A model generated the notes under the pieces. It searched no databases. It saw only the letters and a list, made by a program, of their open reading frames with translations, and was not told where the DNA came from. Both the position numbers and the translations under genes were made by a program. A DNA stretch of 64,000 bases from Antedon mediterranea. Lineage: Eukaryota; Echinodermata; Crinoidea; Comatulida; Antedonidae. Below are positions 9,036-48,060 of the stretch, piece after piece; the stretch's first letter is position 1, and every line of letters begins with the position of its first letter. Where the stretch lies: contig NC_092671.1 in the NCBI RefSeq assembly GCF_964355755.1, positions 21,168,001-21,232,000 on the forward strand. The letters run 5' to 3'.

Positions 9036-9425
9036 CGTGAAAATGGCCGAAAATTTGGTAGATTTTGCAACAATTATTTGGAAGGTCATTACTGCTTGTA
9101 TGGAGATCCAGCGTATCCTATACGCCCATGGCTGATTTCACCGTTCAGACAAGGAGCTGCTAACTTAGATCAGCGTCAGCAGGAGTTCAATGCTGCCATG
9201 TCTTCTGTACGTGTTTGTGTGGAGTGGGTATTTGGAAAGATGCTACAGAACTGGGCTTTTGTGGACTTCAAGAAAGACCTTAAGGTGTTTTTACAACCAG
9301 TGGCAAAATACTATATTGTGGCTGGTTTGCTAACCAATTGTCATACTTGTTTGTATGGGTCAGTAACTGGATCATTTTTTGAAGTCGAACCCCCAACACT
9401 CGAGGAGTATTTGGGCAACGCTTAA
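9036..9425 (+). pseudogene. Harbinger transposase, C-terminal half only
   Basis: The frame is open from 9036, with no ATG in frame, to the TAA at 9423-9425. It shows HYCLYGDPAYPIRPWLISPF, which carries the second catalytic Asp of the DDE triad. It then shows FNAAMSSVRVCVEWVFGKM, with the catalytic Glu before WVFG, and a C-terminal tail. The block with the first Asp and the N-terminal helix-turn-helix region are absent. An ATG at 9043 lies in a different frame and gives only about 30 residues. A full Harbinger transposase is about 350-450 residues, so roughly two thirds are lost, by internal deletion or loss of upstream exons. The start cannot be assigned. Confidence 0.85.
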
Positions 9426-14322: not shown

Positions 14323-14655
14323 AGCCTATTTTCCACTAGGCGAATTTGTTCGCGCGAATCGAAAGCGTCATGCTATGCGCATGCGTATTCAAGTTTCTGT
14401 CTGTCATACTCCCTTCTACGACGAATTCTAGTTCCTTTGATTTTTCACTTCAGCGAAATTTACTAGTTTCTACTTTTTGCGAAGCGAAAACTTCTCAACC
14501 AATCACAGAGCTGCTCGAGAAATGAGTTGTCAACAAATCGTCTGGCGGCCCGGCGGATTTCTCAAATTGTTCATACGACCTCGCGCTTTTTTTTTATTAC
14601 AGTATACTATCCGATCTGATTCAAGTGATAGGCCTATTTTTTGAGTCATATTAAT

Positions 14656-15868
14656 ATGGAGTGTAGCGAAATTCTCATGACAATTGAAGATGGTGCTGTA
14701 AAAGATCTAGAAGAGACAGAATTAGGCCTAGGCCAAATACTAATAGGCCAAGGCTATTACGAGTGTGATGAGCAGCAGACTAGGCCTAGGCCTAGGCCTA
14801 GACCTACCGGCACTGGAGCAACAGAAGCAGGCGTCGTAGTCGTCGGGACAGAACCCCAGCCACAGGAGGCATGCAGTCCACCACCAGCAGAGGAGAAAAG
14901 CTTAGGCCTAAGCCTAGGTCTGTTTAACAAAGAACTCTTCATAGAAGAAGTCAGAAAACACAAATGTTTGTGGGAAGTTAACTCTGAAAAGTATAAAAAC
15001 CGTGCAATTAAAGTTAACGCCTGGAAAACAATAGGAGAAATTTTCAATAGAGAAGGTAAAAACAAACTCTAAGTAAACCTAGGCCTAGAGCCTACTAGGC
15101 TACTAGGACTAGGTTAGACTAGGCCTACTACTTGCTAGGCTAGCTATGCTAGGCCTAGGCCCCTATATCTTAATATTAAATTAGTATGCCATGCCTAGAT
15201 AGGTCTAATCTACTAGCCTAGCTAGGCCTAGGCTACTCTATCTAGCAAGCCTACTGGCAGGCAGGCCTATTCGAACATTCCATTTTCAATTTTGGATAAA
15301 TTACTCGCGTGTAGGGCTACAAAAATTAAAGTTAAAGTGTTAATTCGGTATAATTTGTTATATTTTTTTAGTTGAATTCCTTCAGCGACAACTCAAAAAC
15401 CTGAAAGACACACTAAAGAAGTGCCTAAACAAGAGAAATTCAATTATACGGTCTGGGGCAGCCGCTACGTCTTTACCGCAATGCAAGTATTTTGAACAGA
15501 TGAGATTTCTGCATGAAAAAACAGCCAACTAGCCAACTGTCAGCAACTGTCAAGCTACAAGTAGTGGTACTACTGCAAGGCATGCTTCTAATGAAGAGAA
15601 TATTGATCCCTGTGTGTCGACGATACCACAAGTACCGATAAAACGAAAAAAGCAACATGACGAACTTGATACAATGCTAATAAACCAACTGGAAACGACA
15701 TCGGAAGCCATTAATTCTTTGATATCGGGTTCGAATCAACAGGAAGATGAAGTCGCTCTATATTTCAGGAGCCTTATCCCAATTGTTTCAGCATTTGACC
15801 GCCGAAGACAACGACTCGCTATGGTCAAAATAAGCCAATTGCTTTTTGATATAGAATTCGAGGAGTAA
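14656..15868 (+). CDS. MADF-BESS DNA-binding protein of Harbinger B, two exons, one in-frame stop
   Basis: Exon 1 runs 14656-15055 (donor G|GTAAAA) and exon 2 runs 15372-15868 (acceptor tttttttag). The ATG at 14656 is the first in frame. The product would be about 298 residues. It starts with an acidic N-terminus, ELGLGQ and a short Arg-Pro tract. The MADF domain (about residues 98-133: FNKELFIEEVRKHKCLWEVN...AWKTIGEIFNRE) continues over the splice into VEFLQRQLKNLKD. The C-terminal BESS motif is DEVALYFRSLIPIVSAF...KISQLLFDIEF. MADF binds DNA and BESS mediates protein contacts; in Harbinger elements this protein partners the transposase. A single TAG at 15530-15532 interrupts an otherwise open second exon, so it is either a recent pseudogene or a sequencing difference. 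Confidence 0.8.
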
Positions 15869-16390: not shown

Positions 16391-17080
16391 TTACCATTTT
16401 GATGCATTTTGTTTCATTAGGAAATTGTGAAGAACGACAATAGACTGCGTTATGAGCACAACCTTCCGTACTTTGGCAATAATTGGCCTCCTCAGAATGC
16501 GAAATCTGCTTGCAGCTATACCAAAGGTGTTTTCGATGACTCTTCGTGCTCTCGACAGCCTATAGTTAAACACTCGTTGATCAGTTTCTAAATGTGAAGA
16601 AGGATAGGGTTTCATCATATGCTTCTTTAATCCAAAAGCATCGTCTCCAACAAACACACAGGGCAATGTTTTGTCTGAATTTGGGAGCATCTCTCGAGCT
16701 GGAATGTTGAGCAAGTTATTCTCTATAGCATGTCCCAAATAACTACATCCATATACACTACCATCACTCTGACGTCCACTGTCTCCAATGTCTACTAAAG
16801 TAAATTTATAGTTCGCATCACAAACCGCCATAAGTACAATACTAAAGGTTTTCTTGTAATTAAAATATGATGAGCCTGAATTATTAGGTGCTTGCATCAC
16901 TACATGCTTCCCATCTATAGACCCAACACAGTTGGGAAAATTCCATGACTCGAAAAATTCATTAGAAATATCTTTCCACTCTTCCTCTGTTGATGGATGT
17001 TTGATGAAGCCTTTCTCTTTTAGGACTGTCCATATAGCACCACACGTCCACCCGATTCTGCTACTGTCCACAGGTGCTAT
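16391..17080 (-). CDS. Harbinger (PIF-type) DDE transposase, main exon
   Basis: The frame is open from a splice acceptor (tatagttttacag, exon begins at 17080) to the TAA at 16391-16393. Numbering from the ATG at 17071, the catalytic residues are visible: D53 in GSIDGKHV, D143 or D144 in VFVGDDAFGLKKH, and E180 in RARRVIENTFG. Nearby conserved blocks are FTLVDIGDSGRQSDGSVY and IVVLHNFL. This is the DDE_4 nuclease core, with no stop or frameshift over 226 residues. The N-terminal exon should lie upstream in the minus direction. The LTR element at 17201 sits in that intron, and I did not find the exon beyond 27016. The gene is convergent with the MADF-BESS gene and is probably inactive without its first exon. 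Confidence 0.85.
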   Translation of the reverse strand: MAPVDSSRIGWTCGAIWTVLKEKGFIKHPSTEEEWKDISNEFFESWNFPNCVGSIDGKHVVMQAPNNSGSSYFNYKKTFSIVLMAVCDANYKFTLVDIGDSGRQSDGSVYGCSYLGHAIENNLLNIPAREMLPNSDKTLPCVFVGDDAFGLKKHMMKPYPSSHLETDQRVFNYRLSRARRVIENTFGIAASRFRILRRPIIAKVRKVVLITQSIVVLHNFLMKQNASKW

Positions 17081-17200
17081 CTGTAAAACTATAGCAAGTT
17101 ATACACGTTGCTGTCTGCTATAAATGCTGTACTTTTAAAACACGGTACACTGTCTGTAGCACAGTGTGTGTTGACAATTTACAATGATGTACAACCATAG

Positions 17201-34600: not shown

Positions 34601-37042
34601 TATGTTCGCATTTGGAGACGTTTTAGACCATTTTGTGCATTTCGAAAAAACTTTTCATACAAAAACATCAAAGATCACAAAATAGCTTAATATCGTATTT
34701 AAAAACGTTTTAGACCATTTTGAGCATTTCGACAAAACTTTTTCACACAAAACATCAAAGTGTACAGAATAGCTTCAAATCGCATTTGGAGACGTTTTAG
34801 ACCATTTTGTGATTTTCGAAAAAAATTGTTAACATAAAAACACCAAAGTGTTAAGAAAGAATAGCTTCAAATCGCATTTGGAGACGTTTCAGACCATTTT
34901 GTGCATTTCGATGAAACTTGGTTACACAAAATGATCAAAGAGCTTAAAATCACAATAGAAACCGTTTTAGACCATTTTGAGCATTTCGATAAAACATTTC
35001 ACACAAAAACATCAAAGTGCACAAAATAGCTTAATATGGTATGTAAAATCGTTTTAGACTATTTTGAGCATTTCGACAAAACTTAACATCAAAGTGTACA
35101 GAATAGCTTCAAATCACATTTGGAGACGTTTTAGACCATTTTGTGCATTTCGATTAAACTTGGTTACACAAAAACATCAAAGTGCTTAAAATCACATTAT
35201 AAACCGTTTCAGACCATTTTGAGTATTTTGGTAAAACTTTTCACACAAAAACATCAAAGTGCACAAATTAGCTTAATCTGGTATTTTAAAACGTTTTAGA
35301 CCATTTTGAGCATTTCGACAAAACTTTTTCACACAAAACATCAAAGTGTACAGAATAGCTTCAAATCGCATTTGGAGACGTTTTAGACCATTTTGTGATT
35401 TTCGAAAAAATTTGTTAACATAAAAACACCAAAGTGTACAGAATAGCTTCAAATCGCATTTTTAGACGTTTTAGACCATTTTGTGATTTTCGAATAAACT
35501 TGTTAACATAAAAACATAAAAGTGCTTAGAATAGCTTCAAATCGCATTTGGAAACGTTTTAGATCATTTTGTGCATTTCGATGAAACTTTTTCACAAAAA
35601 ACATCAAAGTGTACAGAATAGCTTCAAATCGCATTTGGAGACGTTTTAGACCATTTTGTGCATTTCTATGAAACTTGGTTGCACAAAAACATCAAAGAGC
35701 TTAAAATCACAATAGAAACAGTTTTAGACCATTTTGAGCATTTCGATAAAACTTTTCACACAAAAACATCAAAGTGCACAAAATAGTTTAATATGGTATT
35801 TTAAAACGTTTTAGACCACTTTGAGCATTTCTACAAAACTTTTTCACACAAAAAATCAAAGTGTACAGAATAGCTTCAAATCGCATTGGAGACGTTTTAG
35901 ACCATTTTGTGATTTTCCAAAAAACTTGTTAACATAAAAACACCAAAGTGCTTAGAATAGCTTCAAATCGCATTTTGAGACGTTTTAGACCATTTTATGC
36001 ATTTCTATGGAACTTGGTTACACAAAACAAAAACATCAAAGTGCTTAAAATCACATTAGAAACCGTTTTAGACCATTTTGAGCATTTCGATAAAACTTTT
36101 AACACAAAAACATCAAAGAGCACAAAATAGCTTAATATCGTATTTAAAAACGTTTCAGACCATTTTGAGCATTTCAACAAAACTTTTTCACAAAAAACAT
36201 CGAAGTGTACAGAATAGCTTCAAATCGCATTTGGAGACGTTTCAGACCATTTTGTGATTTTCGAAAAAAAATTGTTAACATAAAAACACCGAAGTGCTTA
36301 GAATAGCTTCAAATCGCATTTGGAGACGTTTTAGAGCATTTTGTGCATTTCGATGAAACTTTGGTACACAAAAACATCAAAGTGCTTAAAAGATCATATT
36401 TGAAACCATTTTAGACCATTTTGAGAATTTCGATAAAACTTTTCACATAAAAACATCAAAGTGCACAAAATAGCTTAAAATGGTATTTGAAAACGTTTTA
36501 GACCATTTTGAGCATTTCGACAAAACTTTTTCACACAAAACATCAAAGTGTACAGAATAGCTTCAAATCGCATTTGGAGACGTTTTAGACCATTTTGTGA
36601 TTTTCGAATAAACTTGTTAACATAAAAACACAAAAGTGCTTAGAATAGCTTCAAATCGCATTTGGAAACGTTTTAGACCAATTTGTGCATTTCGATGAAA
36701 CTTTTTCACACAAAACATCAAAGTGCTTAAAATCACACTAGAAACCGATTTAGACCATTTTGAGCATTTCGATAAAACTTTTAACACAAAAACATCAAAG
36801 TGCACAAAATAGCTTAATATCGTATTTGAAAACGTTTTAGACATTTTGAGAATTTCGACAAATTTTTTTCACACAAACCATCAAAGTGTACAGAATAGCT
36901 TCAAATCGCATTTGGAGACGTTTTAGACCATTTTGTGATTTTCGAAAAAACTTGTTAACATAAAAACACCAAAGTGCTTAGAATAGCTTCAAATCGCATT
37001 TGGAGACGTTTTAGACCATTTTGTGATTTTCGAAAAAATTTC
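34600..37042 (-). repeat. Satellite 2, reverse arm
   Basis: Past about 34,600 the same monomers run in the opposite orientation (cgttttagaccattttgagc). The switch lies between cactttgatgtttttaacat and tcgcatttggagacgtttta. The array is cut at 37043 by the TTAA-target transposon. Confidence 0.9.
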
Positions 37043-37046
37043 TTAA

Positions 37047-37075
37047 AGATGTATTGTCCCTTTGACTAATTCCAA
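37047..37075 (+). repeat. Left terminal repeat (L) of the TTAA transposon
   Basis: It begins agatgtattgtccctttg and continues actaattcc. It matches the internal end R1 (42785-42804) more closely than the outer end R2. Confidence 0.8.
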
Positions 37076-37392
37076 AAAAAATAAAAAATAACAGATTTCG
37101 AAAAAAAATGGGTCAATTTGAAGTATCATAATAGTAATTTAACTTTCAATAAAAATTAGTCGAAAAAAAAATCATTCAACTGAATTACAAACGGTTTTTT
37201 GTTAAAAAAATAACTGTGACTTCCAGTCAAAGTTTTCGATCAAAACATATCCCATAATGCAACGCGCTTGCTAATGAATTATACATACGACTCCTTTTTT
37301 TGGCTTGTTTATTTCTGTACGTACCGCAAGAGAACACACGTGTGAGTTGATTATCATCGTTCATCGCGAGAGAGACGAACCCGTGGTAAAGG

Positions 37393-37817
37393 ATGGGTAA
37401 ACGAGGCCCTTATTCTGGATTGAGATCATCGGAAAAGAAAAGGCGCAAACTTACACGTAATGTAGCGTCAAATGCTCGCAGAATTTTGCTAAACTTCGAT
37501 ACATTTCAGAGATGGTCCGTAGTAAAAGAAGCAAATAATTTAGCAAGTAATTCTGATGTTGCAAATTTTTTGCTTGACAGGTAACTTCTCTCTTTAGTAC
37601 AGTGTCCATCGGCTCTAGGGATTAGTTAGGGCCTTTTATTTAGTAAAATAGGCAATACTAGTAAGTAATGATAATTATTATTATTGGTACTATAGTTCCA
37701 CAGAGTTATAGATAGCCTAATTATTTTGAATTTAGTATAATACTAATAATAATAAATAGGTTAGGTTAGACCTCCAGGCTAGGCCTAGCCTATCTATACT
37801 AACTACTATATAGCCTA

Positions 37818-37855
<38 letters not shown>

Positions 37856-40800
37856 GGCCTGCCTACCTTTGCAATTAGATGAATCGTTCGAAAACAGGCG
37901 GATTGATAGGCCTAGCTAGATAGAGTAATACAACACACCTTTCGTAGTACAGCAGGTATTTTGAGACAGAAAGTATACTTTTATTTAGTGTTAGTGTTAT
38001 ATATAATCTAGCATAGAATAGCTAGCCGCTAGGCCTATGCCTAATTAAAATCATAGATCCGGTTACCTAGCTGAACATACACACAGCACAGGTCCTACCA
38101 TTTTTTTTAATAAAAAAATTGGCCACCCATGACGAAAAGGTTTACCTCCTAACCATTTGACTTGGAATTTTAAGTAGATAATTGATTACAATACCATCTG
38201 TTTGGTAGTGAGGGCCTTCACAAACAGGGCTGGTAAAATAATTATTTTCCTAGCTAGAGTGGGAATTAACTTTGGTACCTCCTCTGTTGTTACATTACTA
38301 GGGCTAGCCAGTGTCAATTTTAGTACAGTATTAATTTGATGATTTGGTATATTAATTTTTTTTTAAATTTAAATTGTAAAATTGTTTTCCCTTATTCTAT
38401 ACCTCTTCACACTGTGCTTTATTGTTTTACGTTTAGTCATGCAGAAAGACATAGCACAGCTTCTGGGCCGACCAGGACAACAGTTTCTACTCACCTTTCT
38501 ACAACATCGACGCCTATAGAAGGTGCTTATTTAAGAACTACACTATCTGGTGGTTCAGATACAAGGTATGAAAATTTAGATATAATACAAATTTTGTTAT
38601 GAAATATATTACTAATAATATTAATACCGTACTTAAATTAGATCACATGGGATTCACATAGTGAACGGTTGCTTTCTACACTCACGATTACATGGCTTCA
38701 ACACTCACTACTAACTGACTTCTCAATAGGAACTCTACAAATATAACTATAAAATATAGAAATTGTCATTGATCATAAATTGTTCTTTAGAATTTCTTCA
38801 ATATCTGGAATTGATAGATTTAGCAGTAACTCAAGTACTGTAACCGCTTTTCCAAGTGCTTCTGAAGATGGAAGGTAAGTTTAAACTAAAATTGCAGCGC
38901 TTTAACTTTTCTGTTTCACTTAATTCCAATGGAATGAACACAGCAAAATCCTTGTCTGTGGCTTGATAATACCCTGCACTCTTTATACACTATGCCAATC
39001 TGATTACTGTTATTGAGAAATAAAATGGCATTAAAACTGTTATTTTTTTAGTATAAGCAACATTAAAGAAGAGGACAGACCCAGATGCTCTGCTGAAATA
39101 TTAAAGTAAATGAATTCTGTATACTTTTCATTTTATATGTTACAATGTATTAATTTTAATTACATAGTTTAAAATCCTTTCCCCCTCGATTGCTAGTGTT
39201 TCTAATCACACAATTAAGAGGTTGACATCATTGCACAAGTATTACTATTATTCTTTCAGTATGACCATTGACATTAACTTGTCAAGTGAATCTGAGTCAG
39301 AGAGCACTTGTGATGAAGATGAAGATTATGATTTATATGAACCATCATTTGACATAAGCCTTTGGTAAGTCATCATCTATTCCTTTAACCTAAACTTCAT
39401 TGTGATGCAGTAAAGCATCATTTAAAAAAAAAATTAATGTTTGAAATTAAGTCATACATACATTTTTCAGTCCCAACAATGCACTTAACCTCAGAGAAAC
39501 CTCATTCGTTGAAGAGGAATTTGAAATTGAGGCAGAAAATGATGATCCATCCAGTCAGATTGAGGAGGACATTGAAGGGGTGGAAGTTGAAAGCCCTTAT
39601 GTTAAACACATTGATATTATGGAAGAGTCTGACTTTCTTATAAAAGATGAAACCTGCATAGTGTACTTAAACTGTTTGAAAACCTTGGCAGAAATCAAAA
39701 TCAACAAATCTTGTACTAGAAAATCCTGTAGTAGTCCTGTTGATCTGCATTCAAAGTTTGTTGGTTCTGCTGTGTATTTCAAATGGGTAAAAAGTCTTAC
39801 TTTCAATTTTTGTAAACATTTTATCTTAATTTAATAATTCATAATTCTAATTAATTCCTGAAACCAATTTATGAACAAGTCTATGGTACCATCAAACAAT
39901 GATGGTTGCTATGTAATGTGTTTCAGCTTGTCAAATGACTTATTTTATGAAATTGGTTTAATGGTTTATTTAATAAATATATTATTGTGATCTACTTAGA
40001 TTTGTACAAATGGCCACCTGAACAACAAATGGTGTTCTCAACCAATTCTAAAGAACAAATTGCATGGAGGGGATTTGTTAATGTCTACGGCACTTTTAGC
40101 TTCTGGAAACAACTATGCAAAGATTGCTCTTCTGGCCAAGTTTTTAAAACTTCATATTCTGAATGTCAACACCTACTATAGAATTCAGAGAAAATATCTT
40201 GTGCCTGCAGTTACTGAATTATGGGAAGATACCCAGAAAGAAATCTTGACAGCACATGAAGGAAAAGATGTTGTACTGCTTGGTAGGTATTATAATATAA
40301 AATGGAGGTGTATGGAAAAAAAATAAATGTGACTAAACTAAAGTTCATAGGTCAAGGCTTCATTGTGCAAATGAAAATGCAGGATGGAACTAAATTACTG
40401 AAAAACGCTAATATTGTTTTTGACGAGTTATAGTGAAGAGAAATTCTATTAAAAACTGTTGTTAGTGGTGGTCAGGTACAAATCTACTTATATACAATAC
40501 AAGAACGTTATTACTGTAAATATTTTTTTTTCATAGGAGATGGAAGGATGGACAGTCCAGGACACTCTGCACAATTTTGCACATATACTATGATGGACAA
40601 TGCTGACAAAAGTATTTTGTCAATTATGACAATTGATAAGCGGGAGACAGAGGGCAAAAGTAGGATTTCAGAAGAGTGTTTCATTTCTCAAACAACAAAA
40701 TGTGAATGTCGTTGAATGTGTAACCGATGCACACTTACAGATTGGCGCATTGATGAGTATGTTTTATTTTTACATCGTAATTCTAGATGATCACCAAAAT

Positions 40801-42628
40801 CTAAAATAAATTTTTGATTAACATGTTTTTATTCTGTAAAATATGGTTTATTTTTATATTTGTTTTTCTTCATCACTCTAGAAAACGAATATCCAGACAT
40901 CAAACACTCACACGATATTTGGCATGCTGCCAAGAATCTAGCAAAAGCATTGGTTGCAGTAAGTTTTTTGGTAATTTGCAGACAATGTAAATTATTTTAT
41001 TATAGTTATACCCTAATTTCATAATATGTAAAATAGGATATTTATTATACAAATTAATACTAATCTTTTGTTTCATTGGTATTTTTTATACAATTTAACA
41101 GGCTGGTCAGAAGAAAGACTGCAAAGTCTTATTAAGTTGGAGCAAAGATATTGTAAACCATTTCTGGCATACCTGCGAGACTTCAAAGACATATGATGAA
41201 TTTCTTGTATGTACATGTTTTAATTTAATGGTGCACATACTGTATATACACTCTCAAAGACAAGTTATATTGTTCTTGAACATAAACTTTAGCACAAGAT
41301 CTTCTTTATTGTGGAATTAATTTCTTTATTCTGGTTCTACTATGTTCATCAATTTTAAAGACTCACAGCTATCTTCAGATACTGACATTGTCATATTATC
41401 TCTGTGTGTATCTGATATTGTATCCATTTTTTCCATATTTAAAAAAAGAAATCTGTATTTGAGATATGTATTTTACTGATTTTCTTGTTCAATGATAGGG
41501 AATATGGTGTGGAATTCTTCACCATGTGGTGGATGAACACCAGTGGGCTTTATCATATAGTGATGTTGGTACAGCCTCCTGTAGTCATGGACCTCTTGAG
41601 AGCGAGAGACAAAAGGGATGGATGACAAAGGGTCATCCAGCGCACGATGCACTACGAAAGATCGTCCTAAACAACAGATTCCTAAAGAAAATCCCATATT
41701 GGCTTAATTTTCGGTAAGCAAATTGATTAAAAATAGAGGAATGGTTTAGACTGTACAAGCATTTCTGTGCATATTCTGTAGTATTGATTAAAGCTAAAAA
41801 AAAAAAAAACAGGTGCTCTAAACAATAAATATACATTTCAACAGAACAATATACACATAATAAACACATTTATTAGTATTACTTTAAAACTTGCATATTT
41901 TATTGCATTTGACAACAGTATTGACTTAGCTATTTATATATACATATTGTGTATTTTTAGTGGAACTGCTGAACTGGAAAATTTCCACCAATGTATTTTG
42001 ATGTATGCGGCCAAAAGATTCCATTACAGTCCACCAATGTACAAAGTAAGGAATCTTCTGGCAGCATTGGATTACACAGCAAACCATCAACGAGAGATCA
42101 AGAAAAATAAAGATGGGACCACAAGGTACATTCCATAGTTTTTTACAGTTGAATATTAATTGGCTATATTAATTACTAAATACCGTACTACATATGAAAC
42201 CGACAAGTCTATTCTTAAATCAATTGTATCTTTATGCCATGTACAACGGAACTAGCTACAGGTATATGGGCAAAAGAAATTTGACAATTAATTTTAAAAT
42301 CGGTTTTCCCGAATTGCAATCTAAGCAAAATATTCCAAATTGCTGTCAAAAATTATAAACAATTATTTTCTGTTGTGTAGATATCAACGCTTATTTAACA
42401 AAAAAAGTAAGAGGTGGACAGTGGTGCCTGTTAAAAGAAGAAAAGGATTACAGCTACATCCAGAAATTGGTGGAAATGGTTGTATACAGAAGACTACTTG
42501 ATGAAACTAGCATGTAAACAGTAACAGGCTTAGGAGAAGATGACCCAAGAAGGCTCAGCAGAAACATTGCTTCAGTACCAGCACCACCAACTCATCAACT
42601 AGTTGAAGAGAAATTGTCAAGATTTTAA
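37393..42628 (+). pseudogene. Kolobok-like DDE transposase, 13 exons, two frameshifts and one stop
   Basis: Exons by splice signals and frame: 37393-37580, 38437-38565, 38791-38874, 39052-39105, 39260-39364, 39471-39786, 40000-40282, 40537-40756, 40882-40958, 41102-41206, 41499-41713, 41961-42125, 42381-42628; about 730 residues. It has a basic N-terminus, then acidic and Ser/Thr-rich linkers. In exon 7 is ICTNGHLNNKWCSQP (C.NGH..W.SQP) and in exon 8 LLGDGRMDSPGHSAQFCTYT, with the likely first Asp. Next come VTDAHLQIGAL (second Asp), HSHDIWHAAKNL, LHHVVDEHQW, C.HG.L and TAELENFHQCILMYAAKR, with the likely Glu. This is a widespread animal transposase family, assigned here to Kolobok because of TTAA. 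One base is shifted near 40675-40695. Another shift lies near 42455-42465. A TAA occurs at 42515-42517. The last exon then reads on to the TAA at 42626-42628. Confidence 0.82.
37818..37855 (+). repeat. (TAC)n microsatellite in transposase intron 1
   Basis: About 13 tandem tac triplets; the surroundings are rich in taggcc words. Confidence 0.9.
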
Positions 42629-42784
42629 ACAAAACTATGATGTATCAGTTACCTTTCTATTCGTGCAAACAGTACTGGGCAATTCCTGTTAAGTTTTTAA
42701 TGTATTCAGTTAAAAATGATTTATTTTTTTCTGTTATGGTACTAAAATGAGCAATTAAATTTGGAAATCTATTTGTGGGAATTG

Positions 42785-42804
42785 TACAAAGGGACAATAC
42801 ATCT
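42785..42804 (-). repeat. Internal transposon end R1 between the two genes
   Basis: The reverse complement reads agatgtattgtccctttgt, identical to the left end for 18 bases. TTAA follows at 42805-42808. Similarity to the left end continues inward for about 130 bp (aattcc; aaatcattt..aactgaat). It has the orientation of a right end, like R2 at 44766. Confidence 0.75.
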
Positions 42805-43536
42805 TTAAATTCGTCCTGGTTGAAAACCAACATACTGGCCAAATGCATCGGGGTATTTGTCCCGTACTGCCCATACACAACTGGGTATTATATTCTGATG
42901 CCAATACCGAGACGACCATGTGGTCACAAAACATACTGCCGGTAGGCTGTATGTTTATGACCCCTATTCCATTTGTTGTCCATAGGCGCTGCTAATATAT
43001 CTTGATGATAGGCTCGTGCCAATTGCAACATTGCTTCATTTAGAATGAGCAACTAAAAGTCCTAAAATGAAAAAAAAAATGTTTATTTAGTATTTTTTGT
43101 TTAGTTTATGTTATGCACTATTTTTCAAAATAATATAAGCTGGTAACAGGTCTGTATTTTAACAACAGTACTTATTAAAAATAAAGCAGAACTTTTAAAA
43201 TTAGTTTGACAAAAAGACAATTCTTTTTGTGTTTTTTTAGATACACTATATCGACACTTTATCATTGTAATGCATTTTATCAATAAGTATGTTAAATTAA
43301 TATACTGTAATGTTTCACACGTGCAATTACCTGAAATTTGTTGTGTTTTCGTGTGTATAGCCACAGCCCACTCTTTCATTTTCAGTTTGAATTTGCCAGC
43401 AGTTGTTGCAAACACACCAACTTGGTGTAGTTGCTGGTGGTACAGGATGATGACCTCCCTCTGGTACTTTTTCTCTGCTGCTTCCTTTAGTTAGTAGGTC
43501 TTTAGCCTCTACCTCTGTCAATGCATTAATTTTAAC
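42805..43536 (-). pseudogene. P2X7 ballast-like (zinc-binding) domain protein, degraded
   Basis: One exon runs from 43536 (acceptor tactttag) to 43331 (donor cag|gtaatt) and contains TPSWCVCNNCWQIQTENERV.C, the WC.C..C...(P)T..E..C zinc-ligand block of the domain. A second part, 43046-42805, reads ILNEAMLQLARAYHQDI, then KWNRGHKHTAYRQYVL, an in-frame TGA at 42924-42926 where the family has Trp, PHGRLG, and after a one-base shift IIPSCVWAVRDKYPDAFGQY...GFQPGRI and the TAA at 42805-42807. The order and motifs match the cytoplasmic ballast domain of vertebrate P2X7 receptors and its many stand-alone invertebrate relatives. There is no channel part. An exon between the two pieces (with CL or CITHH-type motifs) was not found. 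The gene is convergent to the transposase and likely reads from the right terminal region. Confidence 0.75.
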
Positions 43537-44766
43537 CTAAAGTAAAATAAAATTGTTATAAATTGTTTACTGCTAAATATGGAAATATGAAATATTTATC
43601 GTGAGGAATCTTTGCCATTTGCCACCAGAATTTCAAATGTTGAACCAGGTTTCACAATATCTTTTTACCTTTATGTATTACTGGTCCATTGACAAGTAAC
43701 ATTAACAGTGAAGCTAATTAGTTGCGAATATTTCTAAAAGTATTGTCACAAAAATAGTAAATAACCACAGATCCTATAGATTTTTATATATATTGTATAT
43801 GGAAATTATAGTATTAATTATTAGTAACATATTTCTAATTAAAAAATCCCAAGGATATGATTAGTGTATTTCTTTTTATATACAGTACAATTCAATAGTT
43901 AGGCTACTACTACTAGTAATACGCTAGTCTTTAAAAATAGAACTGGCATCTCTCGTCAAAATCACGAATCAGTTGCCAGTACAGTGGGCTAACTTGGGCA
44001 CATTTTACTAGCCTATACTCGATAATTAGTAATGATGAACCGATCGGACCTGGCAAAAATTAATACGGGTAGCCAACGAATACTTAAAAATGAGTTTAAA
44101 GCATAGGCCTAATATTAATAAAAAGACAACGTGAACCTGAAAGGTAGACCTACCTACCTAGAGTAGCCTAGGCTAGAGTAGAAGGCTAGGCCTACTATCC
44201 TAGGTAGGTACTGTGCAAGTTACAGCTTAGAGCTAGGCTTAGTAGTAGTAGTAGCCTAGAGAATCTGAACTAGGCCACAAGTATACATTTTATTTGAGAG
44301 AAACTAAGTAAAAAATAGTAATATATTTACCGACAAATCTATGGGTTTCTTGAATACATTAAAACAAAATTCGTTCCGCAACTAGGCCTAGGCATACACT
44401 GCCGGCCGCGCCGGCGGCGCGCGTTACGTACAGTTTGGCTATATTATATGCATAATCATAAAACTTCCTCTCTCGCGCGATATGTGTAAAAACATCTCCT
44501 CAACCGTGACAAGTTGTAAACAATCTTAATTAGCATATCATGCATAATTCATACCCGTGGTTTGAAATCTTTGTTTACTTTCGCTCGGAATGATTTTCCA
44601 GACGAAATTTAATCAAACTAATTTACCTGTTAATTACGTAAACTTGTTGTTTTTGGCTCGAATTTTTAACTTAAAGTGAATAACTTTAATATTACTTTGA
44701 TATGGCCAATTTAAATTTAGAATATTTTGACCTTCATTTTTTTGTGTTCAAAGGGACAATACAACT
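43537..44766. other. Upstream region of the P2X7-like gene and right terminal region (R2)
   Basis: No exon was recognised here, although a first coding exon of the minus-strand gene would be expected. A GC-rich segment with gccggccgcgccggcggcgc lies at 44402-44421. The last 20 bp before 44766 are the right terminal repeat. TAGGCC words are frequent at 44,100-44,400. Confidence 0.45.
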
Positions 44767-44794
44767 TTAACATAAAAACACAAAAGTGCTTAGA
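44767..44794 (-). repeat. Satellite 2 stub right of the transposon
   Basis: The sequence ttaacataaaaacacaaaag and tgcttagaatagct continues the satellite 2 monomer cut at 37043, then changes abruptly to satellite 3. Confidence 0.8.
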
Positions 44795-47700
44795 ATAGCT
44801 AAATGATGCTATAATATTGCCATTTATGCAAATATATTGTGCTAACATCATCTTATAGAGCCATAGTAACGAATTATATCAAAATTTCCACTTTTCAAAA
44901 TTCAAAAATTATGCTATAATGCCATTTATGCACATAATATTGTGCTAACGTCATCTTATAGAGCCATAGCAACTACTTATGTCAAAAAATAAAGTGTCGA
45001 AAAATGACAAAAATGTTCCACTTTTTTTAAAATTCTATAATTATGCTATAATATTGCCATTTATGCAAATATATTGTGTTAACATCATCTTATAGAGCCA
45101 TAGTAACGAGTTATGTCAACAAATAAAAGGGTTGAAATTTTGCCATTTTTCGAAAATTTTCCTGCGGGGGACCATAGGATTTTTTTTCGAAAAATGGACA
45201 AAATTTCCAATTTCTAAAATTCGAAAATTATGATATAATATTGCCATATATGCAAATAGTTATGTCAAAAAAATAAAAGGGTCGAAAAATGGCAACATTT
45301 TCCTCTTTTTAAAATTAAATAAATATGCTATAATATTGCCATTTATACAGATATATTTTGCTAACATCATCTTATAGAGCCATAGTAACGAATTATATCA
45401 ACATTTAAAAGGGTTGAAATTTGACAATTTTTCGAAAATTTTCCTGCGGCGGACCGCGTGTTTTTTTTTCCAGGACGAACGTGGGCAGAAGTCATGAATA
45501 ATTCATTACCTTAATTATTTTCTATTATAAAGAATTGAAAGATAGCTGATCTACTTCCTAAATATACTAAACCTAACCCTCTAAATAATCTCTCTCAACT
45601 ATTAAAAAAAACATGTTCATGAAAGACCTCGAACCGAGGGCTTCAGCGTAATAGGTTAAAGCCTTTACCACTAGACCAAACATTTCTTGGCAAACGTTGT
45701 TTACACTAATTATATAATCTCTCTGCATTCTAATACAGCGCCCTCTATAATGTTCCCTATTATGTCATAATTAATCATGAATTATTCATGATTTCTGCCC
45801 ACGTTCGTCCTGGAAAAAAAAATTACGCCGGCGGACCATAGGAAATTTTTCCAAAATGGACTAGAATTCCAATTTATAAAATTCTAAAATTATGCTAAAA
45901 TATTGCCATTTATGCAAATATTGTGCTAACATCATCTTATAGAGCCATAGCAACTATTTATTTCAAAATATAAAAGGGTCGAAAATGGCAAAAATTGTCC
46001 ACTTTTTAAAATTAAATAATTATGATATAATATTGCCATTTATGGTCATATATTGTGTTAACATCATCTTATAGAGCCATCGTAACTAGTTATGTCAAAA
46101 AATAAAAGGGTCGAAATTTTGCCAATTTTGAAAATTTCCCTCTGTGGGACCATATGAATTTTTTCAAAAAATGACCAAAATTTCCATTTTTAAAAATTCT
46201 ATAATTATGCTATAATATTGCCATTTATGTACATATATTGTGTTAACATCATCTCATAGAGATATAGTAACTGCGGGGATCATAGGAAGTTTTTTGAAAA
46301 ACAAACAAAAAATAAACAAAATTTCCACCTTTTAAAATTGAATAATCAGGCTATAATATTGCTATTTATACAGATATATTTTGCTAACATCATCTTATAG
46401 AGCCATAGTAACTAGTTATGTCATCAAATAAAAGGGTCGAAATTTGGCATTCTCTGAAAATTTCCCTGCGGGGGACCATAGGAATTTTTTTCGAAAAATG
46501 GACAAAATTTCCACTTTTTAAAATTCGAAAATTATGCTATAATATTGCCATTTATGCAAATATATTGTGCAAACATCATCTTATAGAGCCATAGTAAATA
46601 GTTATATCAAAAAATAAAGCGTCGCAATTTCGACATTTTTGGAAAATTTTTCTGCGGGGGACCATAGGAATTTTTTCGAAAAATAACCAAAATTTCCACC
46701 TTTAAACTTCAATAATTAGGCTATAATATTGCCATTTATGCACATATATTGTGTTAACATCATCTTATAAAGCCATAGTAACTAGTTATGGCAAAAAATA
46801 AAAGGATCGAAATTTGGCCATTTTTCGAAAATTTTCCTGCGGGGGACCACAGGATTTTTTTCAAAAAAATAACCAAAATTTCCACCTTTTAAAATTCAAT
46901 AATTAGGCTATAATATTGCCATTTATGCACATATTTTGTGTTAACATCATCTTATAGAGACATAGTAACGAGTTATGTCAAAAAATAAAACGGTCGAAAT
47001 TTGGCCGAAAATTTCCCTGCGGGGGACCATATGAATTTTTTTCAAAAAATGGCCAAAATTTACACTTTTAAAATTCAATAATTATGCTATTATATTGGCA
47101 TTTATGCAAATATATTGTGTTAGCATCATCTTATAGAGCCATCCTAACTAGTTATGTCAAAATATAAAAGGGTCAAAATGTAACAATTTATCGAAAATTT
47201 CGCTGCGGAGGAACATAGGATTTTTTTCGAAAAATTGCCAAAATTACCACTTTTTAAAATTCAATAATTATGCTATAATATTGCCATTTATGCTCATATA
47301 TTGTGCTAACATCATCTTATAGAGATATAGCAACTAGTTATGTCAAAAAAATAAAAGGGACAAAAAATGGAAACATTTTCCACTTTTTAAAATTAAATAA
47401 TTATGCTATAATATTGCCATTTATAGAGATATATTTTGCTAACATCATCTTATAGAACCATAGTAACGAATTATGTCAAAAAATAAAAGTGTTGAAATTT
47501 GGCCATTTTTCGAAAAATTTCCCTTTCGAAAAATGGTCAAAATTTCCATTGTTTAAAATTGAAAAATTATGCTAAAATATTGCCATTTATGCAACAAATA
47601 TATTGTGCTAACATAATTTTATAGAGCCAGAGTAACTAGTTATGTCAAAAAATAAAAGGTGTTAAATTTGGCCATTTTTGCGAAAATTTCCCTGCAGGGG

Positions 47701-48060
47701 ACCATAGGAATTTTTTTCGAAAAATGGCCAAATATCCACTTTTAAAATTCAATAATTATGCTATTTCGCTGCGAGGATTTTTTTTCGAAAAATGGTCAAA
47801 ATGTTCATGGTTTAAAATAAAAAAAGTCTGCTATAATATTGCCATTTATGCAAATATATTGTGCTAACATCAGCTTATAGAGCCATAGTAACTAGTTATG
47901 TCAAAAAATAAAAGGGTCTAAATTTAGCCATTTTTCGAAAATTTCGCTGCGAGGATTTTTTTTCGAAAAATGGTCAAAATTTCCACTTTTTAAAATTCAA
48001 AAATTATGCTGTAATATTGCCATTTATGCACATACATACCTTTTTATTTTTGACTATGGC
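44795..48060 (+). repeat. Satellite 3, about 185-bp monomer
   Basis: A repeating unit contains gctataatattgccatttat, catcatcttatagagccata, tagttatgtcaaaaaataaa and cctgcgggggaccataggaa. Units are mostly 183-188 bp (for example ctataat at 46537, 46720, 46909, 47085 and 47273), with shorter ones at the left edge. It is interrupted by the MITE at 45456-45828. Confidence 0.9.
45456..45828 (-). mobile_element. MULE-like MITE copy 2, complete, with tRNA-like core
   Basis: Terminal inverted repeats of about 50 bp start gcgt.ttttttttccagga and include cgaacgtgggcagaa. A 9-bp direct duplication CGGCGGACC flanks it (45447-45455 and 45829-45837) inside a satellite 3 unit. A 9-bp duplication with long inverted repeats fits Mutator-like elements. 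On the minus strand, tRNA-like boxes lie at 45678-45662 (tggtctagtggtaaagg) and 45635-45625 (ggttcgaggtc). No open frame is present. Confidence 0.8.

Follow-up and report, generated by a model that had tools for sequence, protein, structure and literature searches.

The window, meaning the whole stretch of 64,000 nucleotides that was analysed, corresponds to C2:21168001-21232000 in the 354 Mb genome of the crinoid Antedon mediterranea. It contains a 7.7 kb element in which a transposase gene on the plus strand converges on a short gene for a domain resembling the C-terminal ballast of P2X7 receptors, referred to below as KolX (Table 1). The outer terminal repeats are 22 bp long, differ at one position and bracket both genes, with TTAA at 37043-37046 and 44767-44770. 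The element begins with AG after the first TTAA and ends with CT before the second, giving it termini of the form 5'-RR...YY-3', a Kolobok feature described by Kojima & Bao (2022, PMC9587614). The DNA left of 37043 is a tandem array whose unit measures 87 bp, and this unit continues right of 44770 from the TTAA (38 bases, score 69, where 401 control 64-mers from elsewhere in the window have a median of 16, a 95% value of 25 and a maximum of 106). Because the array unit resumes at the right TTAA and not at 42808, the element that was inserted at a TTAA is the entire 7.7 kb, ballast gene included.

Table 1. Features of the element and its two genes, in window coordinates.
Feature	Position	Strand	Remarks
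Whole element, very probably Kol0-type Kolobok, TTAA to TTAA	37043..44770	plus	7.7 kb; terminal inverted repeat pair, right flank continuing the left array
Left terminal inverted repeat including TTAA	37043..37064	plus	seven left ends including the window, unlike flanks
Likely first transposase exon	37393..37581	plus	56% identical over 50 residues to L009:9783-9932
Transposase exon	40009..40284	plus	78% identical to L009
Transposase exon, GDGR (first D) and VTDAH (second D)	40536..40755	plus	17 bp deletion and frameshift near 40660
Transposase exon, DxxH motif (HDIWHAAKN)	40881..40958	plus	
Transposase exon	41102..41206	plus	L009 comparison
Transposase exon, CSHGPLE	41499..41714	plus	
Transposase exon, likely catalytic E (GTAELENFH)	41962..42129	plus	88% identical to L009
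Transposase 3' exon	42382..42628	plus	1-nt insertion near 42436 and stop near 42516 in window copy
Internal third terminal-repeat copy	42787..42808	minus	overlaps KolX stop codon; this insertion does not end here
KolX exon B	42805..43061	minus	second ballast part; broken: TAG 43055-43053, TGA 42926-42924, frameshift just before IIPSC
KolX exon A	43331..43536	minus	WCVCNNC part of ballast domain
Right (KolX-side) terminal inverted repeat including TTAA	44749..44770	minus	similar end at L009:2885

The internal copy of the terminal repeat, which the preliminary description of this DNA had overlooked, matches the left repeat exactly, TTAA included. It is present in six other copies of the element, with one base changed in two of those, and was not found near KolX in the sister family L009 with up to 6 mismatches allowed. 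An element ending at this inner repeat was considered and rejected, as copies extend to 44770 and the array is not resumed right of 42808, where the flank scores 16, the control median; the inner repeat could nevertheless serve as an alternative end for a transposase-only element. Two different tandem arrays flank the element, at 35085-37038 (unit about 87 bp) and 45868-47834 (68-326 bp). Scans of the window with Rfam, at gathering scores, and for tRNA genes returned nothing. Elsewhere in the window are transposase pieces and a MADF DNA-binding domain at 16391-17095 (minus), 9036-9422 (plus) and 14632-15069 (plus), with E values of 1.4e-26 and 7.3e-12 for DDE_Tnp_4 and 6.9e-9 for MADF; the DDE_Tnp_4 pieces presumably belong to a Harbinger-like transposase.

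In the transposase of the element, GDGR, VTDAH, DIWH and TAELE follow one another in that order across the exon pieces, the catalytic residues being assigned by eye, and Pfam gives only a weak match to MULE (E 0.086). FWHTC, HHV, EHQW and CSHG are present as well, candidate parts of the zinc finger that Kolobok transposases have between DxxH and the last E. The gene is damaged in the window, and its lesions are unevenly distributed among the six copies compared at these sites: the 17 bp deletion, which is defined relative to three other copies, and the stop near 42516 are both found in the window, C3 and C2 copies and are both absent from those on C1, C5 and C4, while the insertion near 42436 occurs in the window alone, the C2 copy having a different one.

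The ballast domain is split between the two minus-strand exons, with PSWCVCNNC in exon A and TAYRQYVL, PHGRLG and IIPSCVWAVRDKYPDAFGQYVGFQPGRI in exon B. Read piecewise, with X standing for the exon join and for each of the two stops and with the sequence run together at the frameshift, the exons match Pfam PF20478 (P2RX7_C) at 69.1 bits and E 6.3e-19, the cut-off being 23.5. Searched singly against the same profile, two of the three exon pieces give matches that stay under the cut-off (E 8.7e-4 and 3.9e-3), and the last, of 22 residues, gives none. In the PDB, phmmer matches nothing but P2X7 chains, of 4 distinct sequences, with a best E of 3e-10. PSWCVCNNC agrees with the PxWCxCx2C motif described by Rump et al. 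(2020, PMC7016195) for the P2X7 ballast or ZCD. At the site of the LCCRx3GxC motif, the window has VGCGYTHENTTNF, which does not fit; other copies of its family have VCC (C4 and C9) or VFC (C1 and C5), and L009 has MCCGYNPDNC. The site of (LIV)PSC(C/S)x3IRx2(F/Y)P reads IPSCVWAVRDKYP in the window, a partial fit, and IPSCCVWKIRDRYP in L009. In an alignment of ten families read by eye, the arginine matching P2X7 R546 is kept in nine and is lysine in the window, and that matching R578 is kept in all ten (numbering of Rump et al. 2020, PMC7016195). It is clear from these results that the preliminary description had correctly placed the WCVC, AYRQ, PHGRLG and IIPSC blocks on the minus strand, had correctly likened them to the P2X7 domain, for which the profile and PDB searches now speak, and had correctly seen a gene convergent to a transposase within one pair of TTAA terminal repeats. 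It had missed that the ballast gene is broken, exon B being disrupted by a frameshift and by the stop codons TAG and TGA.

Intact relatives of this gene are found in sister families. The L009 locus (C4:16213839 region) has a KolX-side terminus at 2885 that shares 17 of 22 bases with the left repeat of the window element, and an alignment of 98 bases between this end and the right end of the window element shows 75% identity. Eight pieces of its transposase are 71-90% identical to that of the window, and the first piece 56%. The L009 KolX is open, carries eight cysteines across three motifs and, with its two exons joined, matches P2X7 at E 7.6e-18; the KolX exon is open in the sister-family copies at C4:16213839 and C4:15947965. 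At L012, a THAP domain (E 3.5e-17) and transposase pieces accompany KolX (E 1.2e-18), and the KolX-side TTAA end of this family recurs at L004-L008, in five places with five different flanks. Opposite-strand transposase pieces were detected in 10 of the 20 fetched loci (L009, L010, L012, L013, L017, L018, L023, L024, L026 and L028), and two others of the 20, L011 and L027, have a THAP match only. A TTAA repeat pair scoring 15 or more surrounds the domain in five of these 10 kb loci (L012, L015, L017, L022 and L023); the other 15 scored below 15, some having their ends outside the fetched stretch, and the scores are given without a background. In L015 (3261-6403) and L022 (3256-7809), TTAA repeats beginning AGATCATGGAACATGGTA enclose a ballast exon (profile 106-184) and no transposase match; the same profile extent accounts for 14 matches in the genome listing.

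The window element itself belongs to a family of closely similar copies. With its left 358 bases as the query, for which 40 of 1,416 first-look candidates were scored, the matches listed include six of 99-100% over the whole query, counting the window, and one more of 98% over 295 bases. The left flanks are unlike in all seven ends: pairwise comparison of six of them gives 13-24 identical bases in 60, and the seventh (L041) was judged by eye. A second query, 42629-44830 (40 of 1,705 candidates scored), gave six full or nearly full copies among the matches listed, the window included, on C1, C2, C3, C4 and C5. Identity to the window is 100% for the C3 and C2 copies, 98% for C1 and C4, and 98 and 97% for the two C5 pieces; a split copy on C9 is 99 and 96% identical. 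In four of the five other near-full copies (C3, C2, C4 and the second C5 piece), the match ends at query base 2142, which is window position 44770, and the matches on C1, C9 and C8 run a few bases into the window's flank, to 2157, 2150 and 2147, respectively. Much shorter relatives also occur. Thirty listed matches of 87-90% cover only about 1805-2142 of the second query, 33 further listed matches of 90-92% to the first query end near base 228, and at C7:2897331-2897889 two element end pieces abut, so the short matches look like a family of internally deleted elements of about 560 bp, present in many copies and composed of the equivalents of 37043-37270 and 44433-44770.

The lesions of exon B are not peculiar to the window. 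TAG, TGA and the frameshift are all present in seven of seven copies (window, C3, C2, C1, C4, C5 and C9). These seven occupy different sites in the genome, and over the compared stretches their identity to the window is 96-100%. On C8, a rearranged copy whose two pieces are 93 and 97% identical carries the frameshift and neither stop, so that the frameshift is found in all eight checked copies and both stops in seven of these. The simplest order would put the frameshift before the stops, each event having been followed by further copying, and the family appears to have continued to spread with its KolX broken, which argues against an essential role of KolX in cis.

What KolX does for these elements can be proposed only tentatively. 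KolX may be a small protein with a zinc scaffold that helps transposition and is able to act in trans. The window family would then have lost its own KolX stepwise, by a frameshift and later by two stop codons, and would have continued to spread by borrowing KolX from sister families or by managing without it. This sequence of events, in which a helper supplied in trans and dispensable in cis is lost by frameshift, followed by more transposition, two stops and renewed spread, is a reading to which we give somewhat less than even credence. If true, the lineage would offer a natural experiment on how the ancestor of the P2X7 tail serves a transposon. An alternative, somewhat unlikely in our judgment and yet the strongest of those considered, is that KolX was unnecessary in this lineage and was lost neutrally, with no supply in trans. 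The differing ages of the lesions in a family with many similar copies would fit such a loss, as would the transposase lesion sites, where three of six copies lack the 17 bp deletion and the stop. Against it, the two sister copies with an open KolX exon, together with the similar terminus of L009, coexist with the window family in this genome, which leaves room for supply in trans.

Genome-wide, PF20478 gives 70 matches, which merge into 66 loci; the window family is missing from these because its exons are too short or too decayed for the threshold. A Kolobok transposase match lies within 8 kb of 35 of the 66 loci, convergent with the ballast gene at 33 and not convergent at two, whereas of 20,000 positions drawn at random on C1-C10 only 58 have such a match equally close. 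The convergent layout is found again in other element families of this genome. In the reverse direction, KolX lies within 8 kb of 41 of 68 transposase loci, seven window-family copies counted, a proportion that is biased upward since the two transposase queries came from loci picked for a ballast gene, and that draws on 102 of 135 transposase matches. Among viral contigs, no relatives were confirmed, three pattern matches having failed tblastn.

The two genes also appear to share their history. Across 10 families, the distances of KolX (the last 50 or so residues) and of the transposase are correlated (Mantel r 0.82, p 1e-4, the lowest value that 9,999 permutations allow; L018 contributes only 94 transposase columns), and the correlation persists when the window family is left out (r 0.66, p 1e-4), so that KolX looks co-inherited rather than stray cargo. 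The comparison of the window with L009 yields dN values of 0.17 and 0.13 for two pieces of KolX and of 0.09-0.15 for four pieces of the transposase; synonymous change is saturated in five of these six segments. In close within-family pairs, KolX shows few changes or no constraint: dN/dS is 0.97 for L012-L021, in which L021 is broken, and 0.85 for L009-L010, with four changes, and L015-L016 differ by two replacement changes and no silent ones. The L009-L010 transposase has a dN/dS of 0.61 in one piece and a single replacement change in another. From these comparisons, we conclude that KolX is an old and regular gene of these elements. Its repeated acquisition as cargo by different transposons, with no role in transposition, would be in keeping with the spread of the window family with a broken KolX, with the missing transposase match within 8 kb of 31 of the 66 ballast loci and with the unconstrained close pairs; we nevertheless regard it as improbable in view of the correlated distances over 10 families, the recurring convergent position and a between-family KolX dN far below the saturated synonymous change. 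The preliminary description had spoken of a transposon cargo or accessory gene, and the carriage in a TTAA transposon stands, whereas the passenger sense of the phrase conflicts with the correlated distances and the between-family constraint. The idea of a host gene lying beside a transposon that ends at 42808, where the exact left-repeat copy has its TTAA, can be set aside as wholly implausible, given that the host array continues right of 44770 and not right of 42808, that the region up to 44770 is repeated in copies on C1, C2, C3, C4 and C5, and that further ballast loci adjoin convergent transposases. The window element is very probably a copy of a Kol0-type Kolobok whose ballast domain is KolX, an element gene inherited with the transposase, the Kol0 assignment being made from published features of the group.

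The P2X channel of this genome is separate from these elements. The 12 matches of PF00864 fall at two places on C3, for which the nearest ballast match listed is 1.7 and 1.5 Mb away; no listed ballast match lies within 1.4 Mb of either place, in a listing that can miss split, short or decayed copies, the window's own among them. With both P2X places this far from listed ballast matches, a P2X fusion in this genome was dropped as a candidate. Among the listed matches, then, the domain occurs in transposons and P2X occurs without it, which is silent on when the P2X channel gained the domain. One P2X7 chain is 33-45% identical to the last KolX exons of ten families, the closest being L013 (0.45) and L009 (0.41).

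The likeness of Kol0 KolX to residues 476-595 of human P2X7 and its adoption of the ballast fold were reported by Kojima & Bao (2022, PMC9587614), who regard KolX as the likely origin of the P2X7 tail and of Nanor and propose Nanor as a domesticated KolX; the main idea pursued here is, on that report, already known. The ballast domain had been traced through animals by Rump et al. (2020, PMC7016195). Full-text literature searches returned neither a co-phylogeny test of KolX and transposase nor an account of a family spreading with its KolX broken. The counts from this one genome support what was proposed in 2022, that Kolobok transposons have the P2X7 tail domain as one of their components, and the loss of KolX in a family that kept spreading offers a handle on its function.

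Among known systems, the stand-alone ZCD proteins such as nanor are alike in being short and consisting of the ballast domain only, and the sections of Rump et al. (2020, PMC7016195) considered here connect them with no mobile element and contain no word beginning transpos-. The C-terminal ballast of P2X7 (PMC7016195; solved chains 9e3m, 9e3q, 8tr5 and 6u9v) shares the cysteine pattern and motifs, which are complete in L009, and differs from the window copy, which has no P2X channel, lacks some of the cysteines and is broken. There is also a close likeness to the Kol0 Kolobok elements with KolX as described in PMC9587614, with which the window element shares the TTAA target, the RR...YY termini, a DDE transposase with DxxH and a second protein with the ballast domain, the last recognisable by sequence in a broken copy. 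Compared by description, it departs from the published Kol0 elements in its broken KolX and in having a further, internal terminal-repeat copy next to the stop codon of KolX.
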